Source: a virus
Strand: one strand, 5' to 3'
IMG/VR virus record: IMGVR_UViG_3300049595_001405
Coordinates: 1 to 36,991 of that record
Length of the DNA stretch: 36,991 nt
The notes under the pieces: generated by a model
What the model was told of the DNA's origin: nothing
Databases searched by the model: none
What the model saw: the letters and a program-made list of their open reading frames with translations, nothing else
Shown: positions 32,316 to 36,991 of the stretch, one piece after another
Layout of the letters: every line of letters starts with the position of its first letter
Numbering within the stretch: the first letter of the stretch is position 1
Made by a program: the position numbers and the translations under genes

Positions 32316-32515
32316 GCCTTGGCCCTCACCATAAACGCGCCACCTTCCCACCCGCCCCGGCACTCCAGCTTGCCGTCGTCGATCAGGTTGTGGACCACGC
32401 GGTAGAGATACGGGCTGGCACTGTCGCTGCCCCACTTGGTCATCTTGCGCAGGGCGTGGAGGTCGGTCCAGATGTCCCTGACTAGGGACACGATCAGTTG
32501 CTCGTCGCGGTTCAC
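32312..32515 (-). CDS. Small winged-helix-like protein, 67 aa
   Basis: A 67-residue protein with three helices followed by strands (LYRVVHNLIDDGKLECRGG, then GGAFMVRAKA), the look of a winged helix-turn-helix. It begins with GTG at 32515, overlapping the helicase loader stop as GTGA; the open frame to 32587 is a shadow of that gene. It may bind DNA near the origin or help the loader, which is inference from its place. Confidence 0.7.
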   Translation of the reverse strand: MNRDEQLIVSLVRDIWTDLHALRKMTKWGSDSASPYLYRVVHNLIDDGKLECRGGWEGGAFMVRAKA

Positions 32516-33270
32516 TTGGCTGCTCCTGCGGTCTGTGCCGCCCTTGACCTGTAGCTCTGCCCATCCATCACAAGAATCCGCCCACACTCCTGCATCCTGC
32601 TAGTCGCGCTGGCCCCGATGCTTTTGGCAAAGTCCGCCGCCGTGAGGTTGGCGATCATCACCGTGGGCAACTGGCTTGCGTACCGCTTGTCGATCAGCCG
32701 GTTTAGCTCTCGCGTCTCGAACGCAGAGTCCACCCGGTCGGCAAGTTCGTCGATAATCAGCAGGCCCGTCCGGACCAGCTTGGCCATTGCCTTGCCCTGC
32801 TTGCCGTCCTCGTCAAACTCACGCCGCATCGAATCGAACATGTCATCGGCCCGCGTATACCACGCCGACCCGCGCCCGCCCATCACCCATGCGTGGGCCA
32901 GCCCAACGGCAAGTTGGGTCTTTCCGCTGCCCCGCGTCCCGACCAGAGCCAGCAGCCCGCCGTCCATCGCGGTCTGCCAAGCCTGGGCCGCGTGGTCGAT
33001 GTTCAGCTCCACGCCAGCCACGATCCGCGCCCGGTGGCGTGCTGGCATGTTGGCCTTGTCCCACACCTCCTCTCGCTCATACCGCCGCTGACGCGCTTCC
33101 GCTTGTTCCGGGGGGGCGATAGACAAGCTGGGCGAGGATGTCTTCGATGGGAGGCTCGGGGAACTCTCGCTTGGCACGCTCCTCGGCTGCCGTGGTGCGG
33201 GAGGCGCGATCCCCAGTTCGGCCCGACGCCTGCTGACGCGATCCAGAATTTCGTTGGTTGTCTTGTCCAT
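32512..33270 (-). CDS. DnaC-like helicase loader (AAA+ ATPase)
   Basis: A 252-residue AAA+ protein that loads the replicative helicase. Walker A GTRGSGKT is at 111-118, Walker B LLIIDE at about 170-175, and a sensor 1 region is at VMIANLT. The ATG at 33270 follows GGAGCAACAGCA. This start makes its first 64 residues overlap the end of the replisome organizer in another frame for 194 bp. Those residues are Ser/Pro-rich and might be a disordered arm. An in-frame ATG at 33048 would give a 178-residue protein starting near the usual loader domain. It follows the initiator, like lambda P after O. Confidence 0.9.
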   Translation of the reverse strand: MDKTTNEILDRVSRRRAELGIAPPAPRQPRSVPSESSPSLPSKTSSPSLSIAPPEQAEARQRRYEREEVWDKANMPARHRARIVAGVELNIDHAAQAWQTAMDGGLLALVGTRGSGKTQLAVGLAHAWVMGGRGSAWYTRADDMFDSMRREFDEDGKQGKAMAKLVRTGLLIIDELADRVDSAFETRELNRLIDKRYASQLPTVMIANLTAADFAKSIGASATSRMQECGRILVMDGQSYRSRAAQTAGAAK

Positions 33271-34081
33271 TGCTGTTGCTCCACGCCGCTGGCGTTTCGT
33301 AAATACCCTCGCTCCAGAACCTATCGCACGCTGGCAGGAACCGAGTTCCTTGCCCTTCAACCGCCTTCGCATATGCCAGCGTGGTTTGCATCATCCACGC
33401 CAGCCCACGCTTGATTCGTTCGTCTTCGGTTCCCTCGCCGCCGTGATGGTGATAGATCGACGGCCAGACTTCGCGCATGGCGTCCACAGACTTTCGCCAG
33501 CCTGCGGCCTTGGGGTGTGCATCTGCGATTGGCTTGAACTCTGGCACGTCTCCGGGCATCGGAACCGCCCCCGGCACGTTGTCGAGTTCTTGTGCGCGCG
33601 CTCTCTCTCTCACAATACCTTCCCTTACATTACCATACTCTACAATACCCCCCCCCGTCGGTTGCGCGCCTTGTGCGCCGGGTGTGCGCTCGGTGTGCGC
33701 GTCCTGTGCGCGCGGTGTGCGCGCGGTGTGCGCAGGCTGGACGGTCTTGGCATCAACCAGCCAACCGATTTCTGCACTCATTAGCAGGTCAAACGCGGTT
33801 TCTACCACCTTGGCGGGAGTTCCAAACCGCTTGGCAAACCGGGCCGGAGTCCAGTCGCCCTTGTCGTCGGTCAGTGTCCCGCGTTCCGGACACTTCGATC
33901 CGATCTGGACCAGAGCGATGAAGACGCCGTACGCGATGATGCCGGACGGGGTTCGCATGAGCTGCACAAAGGCTCCGGAGTCCTGCTTGTTCGTTATCGA
34001 CACGTACCGGAGCGTGTCGAGACGCCTTGACAAACGGTTCTCGAAGGTCTGATCCCAGTCCTTGATGGCGTAGGTTGTCAT
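33077..34081 (-). CDS. Replisome organizer / replication initiator-like protein
   Basis: A 334-residue protein upstream of the helicase loader. Residues 1-112 form a helical, winged-helix-like N-terminal domain (ARFAKRFGTPAKVVETAFDLL near 80-100). A linker at 113-145 follows, then a C-terminal part with a long helical region, and a Ser/Gln/Arg-rich tail from about 270 to 334 that overlaps the loader gene. Domain order and gene order match lambda O-like initiators. The linker DNA holds iterons and a G-free AT-rich tract, a candidate origin inside the gene. The ATG at 34081 follows AAAGGAGG and overlaps the upstream stop as ATGA. Confidence 0.8.
   Translation of the reverse strand: MTTYAIKDWDQTFENRLSRRLDTLRYVSITNKQDSGAFVQLMRTPSGIIAYGVFIALVQIGSKCPERGTLTDDKGDWTPARFAKRFGTPAKVVETAFDLLMSAEIGWLVDAKTVQPAHTARTPRAQDAHTERTPGAQGAQPTGGGIVEYGNVREGIVRERARAQELDNVPGAVPMPGDVPEFKPIADAHPKAAGWRKSVDAMREVWPSIYHHHGGEGTEDERIKRGLAWMMQTTLAYAKAVEGQGTRFLPACDRFWSEGIYETPAAWSNSNGQDNQRNSGSRQQASGRTGDRASRTTAAEERAKREFPEPPIEDILAQLVYRPPGTSGSASAAV
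33591..33733. repeat. Candidate replication origin: iterons and AT-rich tract
   Basis: TGTGCGC occurs at 33672, 33683, 33694, 33705, 33716 and 33727, exactly 11 bp apart, with a degenerate seventh copy at 33661 and a further exact copy at 33591. An 11-bp period shifts the reading frame each time, so it is a DNA, not protein, repeat. Beside it, 33601-33656 has no G on the plus strand and is AT-rich (33611-33648), with two ACAATACC copies 30 bp apart at 33612 and 33642. This layout matches lambda-type origins in an initiator gene. Confidence 0.65.
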
Positions 34082-34320
34082 CGTGCAGCCTCCTTTGACA
34101 CAACCTTCCAGCCGCCAGCCTCGCGCATCTTCCGGTACCGCTCGCGTGCCTTAGCCCTGGCCGCCTCCGGGTCGCGTTCAAACCGTGCCTTGGCCGCCGC
34201 GTTCATGCAGTCCTTGCACCGTCCGAAGTGGCCGTCGCGGTGTGCTGCGTGCCGGTAGAAGTCCTCTATCGGCTTGGTCTTGCCGCACGCCTTGCAGGGT
34301 TTTTGCTTGGGGGTTTCCAT
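34078..34320 (-). CDS. Zinc-ribbon protein, 80 aa
   Basis: An 80-residue protein with CKAC-GKTKPIEDFYR and a following GRCKDCMNAAAKA, forming a Cys4 zinc ribbon like that seen at the N-terminus of phage recombination endonuclease VII-type proteins. A long basic helix follows (RFERDPEAARAKARERYRK). The HNH-type catalytic part is absent. It may bind DNA or RNA. The ATG at 34320 has no clear ribosome site. It is the first gene after the dyad-bearing promoter region and heads the coupled replication chain. Confidence 0.75.
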   Translation of the reverse strand: METPKQKPCKACGKTKPIEDFYRHAAHRDGHFGRCKDCMNAAAKARFERDPEAARAKARERYRKMREAGGWKVVSKEAAR

Positions 34321-34342
34321 ACCGATAGCGTACCCGGACAAA

Positions 34343-34398
34343 CACTGTTTCACAGTGCAAACCTTTGAAATATACAGATTAGATATAACCCCCCACAA
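34343..34398 (-). promoter_or_regulatory. Promoter and dyad operator for the replication operon
   Basis: On the minus strand, TTGTGG (34398-34393), 18 bp, then TATATT (34374-34369) form a plausible sigma70-like promoter in an AT-rich patch. A perfect dyad CACTGT-TTC-ACAGTG (34343-34357) lies just downstream of the predicted RNA start, a good place for a repressor. The rest of the 160-bp gap (34321-34480) is GC-rich and has no ORF. Confidence 0.5.
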
Positions 34399-34480
34399 CC
34401 CGTCCCGCGACCTACTCAGCTACGGGACGGTGCGGCGTAGTTCAATCCCGCCCGGTCGGTTTCCCGACAGGGCTGGGCGG

Positions 34481-35371: not shown

Positions 35372-35547
35372 TCCCAACCCTTTCCGCCCCTGTGGGGCAA
35401 ATCCCGCCCGGCCCCTCTCGGAGCCGGACGTGAGCAGGGATGCTTGGACCTGCGTGCAGCCGTTACTACCCGACGGCCTGCTGCGGTTGAAGATGCTCGG
35501 TCAAACCCCGCCGCGCCGGGTTCCGAACGCGACGGAGTGAAGTGTGA
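35372..35547 (-). promoter_or_regulatory. Structured non-coding region upstream of the DGQH gene
   Basis: These 176 bases hold no ORF I trust. On the minus strand they can form a chain of hairpins: AACCC/GGGTT, GCAG(G)CCGT/ACGGCTGC, GCAGG/CCTGC, CCGGC/GCCGG, and GCCCC-ACA-GGGGC directly before the ribosome site. It may end the SSB-like transcript, act as a leader, or be a small structured RNA. No sequence family is recognised. Confidence 0.45.
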
Positions 35548-36018
35548 CTAGAACGGCACGGATTCATCGTCGATCACCGGCTTGCGCTGCATCTCCGACA
35601 CCCGCTTGATGAGGCCGCCAGCGTTCGCGGGTCGCGCACCAACCGCCGTCGGTTCAAACACCTTGATCTCGTTCTGCTCGCCGTACTTCGGATCGTCCTT
35701 GACGGCCAGCGTGAGCCGCAGGTTCTTGTCGAGGAAGTCGCCGGGCACCAGCTTCCCTGCCTTGAACTTCTCGCCCAGCCCAACCGCCTCGGCCATCTTC
35801 TTCACTCGCCACAGGGCGGACGGACCAGCCGAGAAGTATTGGGACAGCTTGCGGGTCGCGTCGCCCACGTACACATCGAACGACACGCGCATCATGTCGT
35901 ACCCGTTCTTGTCCTTCATGTCCGAACCGTCTTCCTTCCGCTCGACGATGTTCGTCACCGTCGCCTCGTAGACACCGGCGGGGATTGCACTGCTCGCGTC
36001 CTTGGGATCGTACTGCAT
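35548..36018 (-). CDS. Single-stranded DNA-binding-like protein
   Basis: A 156-residue protein with beta-strand-rich residues 10-115 that could form an OB fold, and an acidic tip ending in VIDDESVPF, closely similar to the DDDIPF tail by which SSBs recruit partners. Phage DUF669-like proteins have this plan. It shares a base with the Sak4-like gene stop (TAATG), and a Sak4-SSB pair is the expected partnership for single-strand annealing or strand exchange. It would coat single-stranded DNA in replication and recombination. Confidence 0.82.
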   Translation of the reverse strand: MQYDPKDASSAIPAGVYEATVTNIVERKEDGSDMKDKNGYDMMRVSFDVYVGDATRKLSQYFSAGPSALWRVKKMAEAVGLGEKFKAGKLVPGDFLDKNLRLTLAVKDDPKYGEQNEIKVFEPTAVGARPANAGGLIKRVSEMQRKPVIDDESVPF

Positions 36019-36896
36019 TAGCTCACCTTCTCAATCTTCGCGCGACACCACTTGATGCACGCCTCGATGCTCTTTGCGGGCATGTCGGACAGGCTCTCGG
36101 CGTTCGCCTTCGTGAGCCACTTGTCCACGGTTTCCGGTTCAATCTTCATCGCCTCGACCAGCCGCGCCAGTTCCTCAACCTGGGTCGGGCTTGCCAGTTC
36201 AACCACCTCGGCCACACGCTCCAACGTGGCGCGGCCGTACCGCTCGGCCACTTCGTCATAGGACCACGGGAACACGTCGTTCTCCGTAAAGTTCTGGACG
36301 CGGCTCTTACGCACCTTCCCCACCCGCTCCGTGCCGCGCTTGGTGATCTCGAACACCAGATCAAACACGTAGTCAAGCTTCTTGTAGCCGTCGAAAGTAT
36401 CGGCCAGCTTCGCCATGCCGTCGCCGTAGACCGCCTTGCTGTGGGCCGTGACAATCACGTTCATGTCCAGCCGGTAGCACAGGTTCAGCAGGTGGCGCAT
36501 CCGGGTATCGGCTAAGCCGATGTGCCGACCGAACTCCTGGCCGGTCGCGCCCGGTTCCTTGGACCGTGCCCGGATTTCTGCCGCCGCCTTGTCCACCAAG
36601 TCCGAATAGACCACGGTGATCGGGTCAATGATGAGCGTGCGGTAGTTGTGCTTCTCGGTCATCAGCGAACGGATCTCGGCCAGCATCTCATCGAAGTCGC
36701 TGGTCTGGAACAGGGCACCGCCCCGGTCTGCCAGCATCTTGACGTACTGATCGTTCTCGGCCCCGCGTTCCGTGTCGATGAGGTACGGTGCGGGAAACTG
36801 GATCGCGGCGGTAGTCTTGCCGACTCCGGCCGCGCCGAAGAACATGGCTTTGAGCCGCTTGTCCTCGGGCTTGGGGATTGATCCTCGAAGTGCCAC
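36018..36896 (-). CDS. Sak4-like RecA-type ATPase (AAA_24)
   Basis: A 292-residue P-loop ATPase. Walker A is GAAGVGKT at residues 21-28 (after KAMFF), Walker B is in YRTLIIDPITVVYSDL near 85-100, and the rest resembles phage Sak4/AAA_24 recombinases, which help single-strand annealing. The GTG at 36896 is chosen because GGGAG lies seven bases upstream; GTG at 36950 has no such site. On the circle it follows the 148-969 gene. Its first codons lie inside the terminal repeat, so they are present twice in this contig (36896 and 32). Its stop shares a base with the SSB-like start. Confidence 0.88.
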   Translation of the reverse strand: MALRGSIPKPEDKRLKAMFFGAAGVGKTTAAIQFPAPYLIDTERGAENDQYVKMLADRGGALFQTSDFDEMLAEIRSLMTEKHNYRTLIIDPITVVYSDLVDKAAAEIRARSKEPGATGQEFGRHIGLADTRMRHLLNLCYRLDMNVIVTAHSKAVYGDGMAKLADTFDGYKKLDYVFDLVFEITKRGTERVGKVRKSRVQNFTENDVFPWSYDEVAERYGRATLERVAEVVELASPTQVEELARLVEAMKIEPETVDKWLTKANAESLSDMPAKSIEACIKWCRAKIEKVS

Positions 36897-36991
36897 TATG
36901 AAACTCCCTTGGCCTGTGTGTGCTGCGGTCTGTGCGTCGGCCACTCGCACGCAACCGATGACTGTGTCTACGCTCGGGCCCGCCTCCGTGC
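36865..36991. repeat. Terminal direct repeat, right copy (contig overlap)
   Basis: Identical to 1-127. This copy contains the true start (36896) of the Sak4-like gene and its ribosome site. Joining the two ends gives a 36,864-bp circle and continues the minus-strand gene chain without a break. Confidence 0.95.

Follow-up and report, generated by a model that had tools for sequence, protein, structure and literature searches.

A putative replication origin of 11-bp-phased heptamers within the initiator gene of a phage

The replication region and its repeats

The window, by which we mean the whole stretch of 36,991 nucleotides that was analysed, comes from an uncultured phage listed as a virus record in IMG/VR. 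Its ends overlap by exactly 127 bp, and the genome is therefore a circle of 36,864 bp, as the preliminary description had it. The replication region lies on the minus strand, with SSB/DUF669-like and Sak4-like genes upstream of the gene for a 334-aa protein, and a helicase loader gene downstream of it. Its features are as follows:

32512–33372, minus strand: DnaC/IstB-type helicase loader (PF01695, E 3.9e-15; phrog_50, E 3.5e-29)
33077–34081, minus strand: initiator gene, 334 aa, with residues 1–115 forming the domain conserved in Planctomycetota homologues and the linker coded by the array
33591–33597, plus strand: outlying exact TGTGCGC, on the opposite side of the tract from the array
33601–33656, plus strand: G-free tract of 56 nt (C-free on the coding strand), 48% GC, a candidate unwinding element
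33661–33733, plus strand: iteron array, a degenerate GTTGCGC and six exact TGTGCGC in 11-bp steps (GCGCACA on the coding strand)
34078–34398, minus strand: small gene, endonuclease VII/HNH-like, adjoining the initiator on its upstream side, at the flank of the exchanged module (phrog_2340, E 1.5e-11)
34373–34455: last stretch common to the phage L002 before divergence at the initiator module (95% identity over 83 nt)
35548–36018, minus strand: SSB/DUF669-like gene of the same replication region (phrog_378, E 9.5e-7)
36018–36950, minus strand: Sak4-like single-strand annealing ATPase (PF13479, phrog_124)

The IstB/DnaC ATPase domain of the loader scores 56.4 bits against PF01695 (cutoff 24.1). 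Its true start is probably near 33270, and in that case it would share ~190 nt with the 3' end of the initiator gene, read in a different frame (window 33077–33270). The 334-aa protein itself has no match in Pfam, PHROGs, NCBIfam, the PDB (phmmer) or INPHARED (tblastn), and no DnaD-like C-terminal domain was detected in it with Pfam or PHROG. Searches of viral contigs by peptide patterns found no close relatives of the initiator or the loader, and a single-sequence AlphaFold model of the initiator was unusable (pLDDT 36).

Exact copies of TGTGCGC start at 33672, 33683, 33694, 33705, 33716 and 33727 on the plus strand, each 11 bp from the next, and the degenerate seventh unit at 33661 (GCGCAAC on the coding strand) lies 11 bp beyond the six. 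Read along the coding strand, the gene consists of the N-terminal domain, six GCGCACA and the GCGCAAC, GGGGGGGGGTATTGTAGAGTATGGTAATGTAAGGGAAGGTATTGTGAGAGAGAGAG, one further GCGCACA and the C-terminal part. The origin-like array thus lies inside the gene, ~350 nt from its start, after the conserved N-terminal domain and between protein domains. The tract contains two copies of ACAATACC, at 33612 and 33642, and is the sole G-less run of 30 nt or more in the window, which has no C-less runs of such length; at 48% GC against ~63% for the genome it is moderately AT-rich only. The array, the outlying copy and the tract all lie where the preliminary description had placed them.

The genome's most AT-rich 40-bp stretch (at 34348) is intergenic and lies just upstream of the initiator region (window 34330–34420); it could be a promoter or an alternative site of opening. 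A change of GC skew near 33.6 kb had also been anticipated, and this was not borne out: detrended cumulative skew has no turn there, and its extremes lie at ~28.4 kb and 4.6 kb. GC skew is a weak test here, as the phage's main genes are all on one strand.

Constraint on the array and tract as DNA

TGTGCGC occurs 12 times in the whole window against ~14 expected, an ordinary count, and it is the clustering and phasing of the copies that is unusual, not their total number. The array is the strongest local periodicity of the genome (lags 7–39; 47/60, against 37/60 for the next best). When the protein was held fixed and codons were redrawn from the phage's own usage, none of 20,000 synonymous recodings had more than four of the six TGTGCGC copies, and the 11-bp periodicity seen in the phage was never reached; the C-free tract of the coding strand was equalled in none of 5,000. 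Since synonymous recoding never rebuilds either element, both are constrained as DNA. The spacers between the heptamers vary and the heptamer itself is fixed; it contains no stop codon in any coding frame, and an 11-bp array can therefore cross all three frames. Because 33 bp is 11 codons, the linker does contain an 11-residue peptide repeat, AHTxRTPxAQx, which follows as a consequence of the DNA repeat.

Controls in which the period was varied gave viral matches to TGTGCGC repeats 13 times at 11 bp, 14 times at 10 bp and 16 times at 12 bp. Counts by period alone are uninformative, and it is gene context that separates the matches: the 16 viral stretches with 12-bp matches are largely codon-phased protein repeats and include no initiators, whereas three of the 14 matches at 10 bp are in initiator-like genes (L100, L104 and L105). 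Together with L003, L006, L012 and L015, these carry TGTGCGC arrays at 10 or 11 bp inside other replication-initiation genes; L014, whose array is in an ORF without a family match, was left out of this count. The period-12 control also yielded viral genes with long 12-bp codon-phased repeats of a different kind (AVRDAVDGAV; L081, L083, L087–L089 and L095). In bacterial genomes the 11-bp pattern corresponds mostly to plain minisatellites with constant spacers. What does inform is whether the spacers vary, whether the array lies in an initiator gene and how it fares under recoding; pattern counts prove nothing alone.

Homologues, an exchanged module and an analogous family

G002, the genome to which a Blastopirellula contig belongs, is one of the Planctomycetota, and a search of 392 genomes of that phylum, with a profile search in addition, found three homologues of the N-terminal domain, at E values of 1.9e-21, 6e-15 and 2.5e-6. 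They are denoted L206, L207 and L208. In L206 the linker contains 11-bp repeats of CGCTCCYAG/GCTGGTAG type and in L208 11-bp repeats of ACCGGCAG type, and in the window, L206 and L208 alike the array was as periodic in none of 1000 recodings. No significant direct-repeat array of 9–13 bp was seen in L207, where CCGGGAA motifs occur inverted and a C-free tract of 31 nt is present (9 of 5000 recodings); no long C-free tract was found in L206. The homologues differ from the window in their iteron cores and in their C-terminal parts, that of L207 being DnaD-like (phrog_186, E 5.9e-6; Pfam DnaB_2 slightly under cutoff). L207 is followed by a DnaC-like loader gene (phrog_50, E 2.1e-10), whereas L206 is followed by a PriCT_2/primase-helicase protein and has an integrase upstream. 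Two of the three relatives thus retain the period and the place of the array but not its letters, as would be expected of a co-evolving initiator and origin. Loss of the period from relatives that keep the protein, which the preliminary description had named as counting against it, is not the pattern in L206 and L208. The N-terminal-domain homologues, the sole indication of host, also suggest that the phage may infect Planctomycetota.

A second line of comparison comes from a near-identical phage, L002 (contig IMGVR_UViG_3300044858_004190), which shares 97% identity with the window over 35400–36991 and 89–95% over the neighbouring part of the circle, and encodes an identical Sak4 protein. Beyond the short common stretch 34373–34455 the two diverge, and in place of the window's 334-aa gene L002 has an ORF that begins MAGDWIKIRTELINDLDVMDIC and matches phrog_2509, 'replication initiation protein' (E 1.9e-32). 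Because near-identical phages hold different genes of this kind at one place, the comparison supports an initiator function for the orphan protein of the window. The L002 contig ends just before the linker, so that its own iterons are not readable. In both phages (L002:5567–6383; window 33077–34372) a small zinc/HNH-like endonuclease gene lies immediately upstream of the different initiator genes, and it might drive their exchange. Five further relatives by capsid (L113–L117; capsid protein 88–98% identical) are on contigs that stop short of the initiator region.

The family to which the L002 gene belongs was also reached through the pattern scan (three TGTGCGC at 11 bp), which gave the viral initiators L003, L006, L012 and L015, all assigned to phrog_2509/9474; L007–L009 are the same phage as L006. 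Named members include those of epsilon15, SPN1S, phiPSA1 and Carin1, and Rac YdaU. A family-alignment scan yielded at least 572 stretches that code for relatives, and 80 of these were retained (L118–L197); 95 genes were examined, 65 of them non-redundant (<80% identity in the N-terminal domain). In-gene iteron cores in this set include CGTTAC, CGTGAC, GCGGAC, TCCGAC and GTCACA among others, with dominant spacings of 11 and 13 bp, the latter being that of a fixed inverted arrangement, which accounts for 70 of 82 inverted pairs. The iterons form two clusters, at nt ~137–195 and ~340–410, the first within the part coding for the N-terminal domain, where in L006 and L012 it accompanies an insertion.

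A tract motif, CCAGAGAAGAGAAG, follows the in-gene iterons in 48 of the 65 non-redundant genes, and in 30 of these 48 the core count exceeds that of synonymous permutation (p ≤ 0.01). The string [CT]AGAGAAGAGAAG stands directly 3' of the last iteron and is read in frames 0, 1 and 2 in 4, 17 and 27 non-redundant genes, giving the peptides QRREEK, PEKRREEK or TREEKRREE. As one string is kept in three frames, the tract is conserved as DNA, and this is strong evidence of a cis-acting element. The retention of CCAGAGAAGAGAAGAGAAG past the last in-gene iteron in all three frames can be followed across phage initiators (e.g. L136:3001–3768, L186:3001–3861 and L006:547–1320), and explains linker peptides of EKRREEK type as coded DNA. 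Two members (L119:3001–4026 and L126:1952–3061) have an HNH-like domain between the N-terminal domain and the tract, and the motif persists ~300 nt further on.

In the AlphaFold model made for one member, both terminal domains (N and C) are ordered and confidence is low at 118–151, where the iterons and tract are coded; Foldseek returned only weak matches to MarR-type winged helices (best E 0.12), which do not establish the fold. Walker-A genes lie downstream of 15 of 71 phrog_2509 genes, so a DnaC-like ATPase is not universal beside them, and phrog_2509 was found in three of 369 genomes of one class. The lag test alone is not passed by every phrog_2509 gene (e.g. Rac, PAN70 and VW-6S). Same-orientation cores are 12 bp apart in 8 of 21 cases where the core contains a stop triplet against 8 of 53 where it does not, a weak trend that we offer as an idea only.

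The resemblance to the window is one of layout. Like the window, these genes have in-gene iterons between domains, 11-bp spacing, an adjoining tract (here of purines, directly downstream of the iterons), sometimes a DnaC-like gene next and, in L002, the same locus. They differ in that their cores are mostly GTAACGC, TGTCACG or TGTCCGC, in the second array in the N-terminal part and in the lack of detectable protein homology: the window protein has no hmmscan match to the phrog_2509 profile (hhalign probability 0.3%). The motif CCAGAGAAGAGAAG is absent from the window, where the tract is a different one.

A probable origin within the initiator gene

Taken together, the DNA-level constraint, the placement and phasing of the array, the homology of the N-terminal domain, the recurrence of the 11-bp period and the swap with a known initiator family make it very probable that the region at 33.6 kb is the vegetative replication origin of the phage, lying inside the gene of its own initiator. 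We infer the following course of events from sequence comparison. The N-terminal domain of the 334-aa protein would bind the GCGCACA heptamers, which, being one helical turn apart, would set successive monomers on one face of the DNA; the bound array would strain and open the adjoining 56-nt strand-asymmetric tract, and the DnaC-type ATPase of the neighbouring gene would then load the replicative helicase. The array also codes for a flexible hydrophilic linker (AHTARTPRAQDAHTERTPGAQGAQ). An in-gene origin of iterons and an unwinding tract, followed by a helicase loader, is what the preliminary description had proposed, and the comparisons support it well, through the initiator of L002 and the two of three homologues that keep the period.

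The alternative that survives best, albeit with little probability, is that the array is an operator through which the initiator or a repressor controls its own transcription, with the origin elsewhere. Regulators too can use phased sites, the intergenic stretch at ~34348 is more AT-rich and skew leaves 33.6 kb unmarked; however, the array is far into the gene, between domains and adjoining an asymmetric tract, and recognised initiator families show this anatomy again, together with a frame-independent tract. It is more improbable still that the sites are bound by some other protein of the phage or its host, for instance a nucleoid factor or one for partition or packaging. A shared external binder might give the same heptamer in several barely related initiators, but the cores differ among relatives, each time within an initiator gene, which fits co-evolution with the encoded protein. 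We consider a neutral minisatellite, arising by slippage in a tolerant linker, equally improbable: although bacterial genomes commonly contain TGTGCGC minisatellites of 11 bp whose spacers are constant, variable spacers around a fixed heptamer are not a slippage product, and distant homologues, like the analogous initiators, have phased arrays of other cores at the same place. Least credible of all is that the linker repeat AHTxRTPxAQx is the functional element and the DNA repeat secondary, for although the peptide repeat is present and in register with the codons, recoding never rebuilds the heptamers and the analogous phrog_2509 string gives different peptides in its three frames.

An origin inside an initiator gene is an already known arrangement. 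Iteron plasmids have arrays of initiator sites beside an opening element; their iterons are as a rule longer, and are located outside the rep gene. The lambda ori lies within the initiator gene O, with iterons beside an AT-rich tract and gene P next (PMC7466680), and the window resembles it in the mid-gene position of the putative origin, the repeated sites by a candidate unwinding tract and the adjacent loader gene. The term 'lambda-O-like' used in the preliminary description is apt as an analogy but no further: the four iterons of lambda are imperfect inverted repeats of 19 bp (PMC7466680), whereas the window has direct heptamer repeats at 11 bp, its loader is a DnaC/IstB-type ATPase and not P, and the window protein matches no lambda O or O-like family in Pfam or PHROG. 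Within the open-licence literature we found no description of the phrog_2509 tract motif or of TGTGCGC iterons, nor do the heptamer and 11-bp layout, the frame-independent tract or this initiator group seem to have been described there.

A broader proposition, to which we give an even chance, is that unrelated or barely related families of phage initiators share one design, in which the inter-domain linker carries short, helically phased iterons and, after them, a strand-asymmetric tract that is preserved as DNA irrespective of frame. Letters would change quickly while period and geometry stay, initiator and origin would form a swappable, self-specific cassette, and stop-codon avoidance would shape the choice and spacing of iterons.

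If the origin reading is true, origins could be located in many uncultured phages from sequence alone, by searching the linker of a replication gene for a strand-asymmetric tract and an array phased at 11 bp, and peptides of the EKRREEK or AHTxRTPxAQ kind in the linkers of phage 'replication proteins' would be shadows of DNA elements. The relatives would offer a natural series of initiator–iteron pairs, with the period kept and the letters varied, for working out recognition specificity, and initiator modules would be exchanged whole between near-identical phages. One stretch of DNA appears to serve both as protein code and as a start signal for replication, and distant relatives appear to do likewise with different repeat letters.
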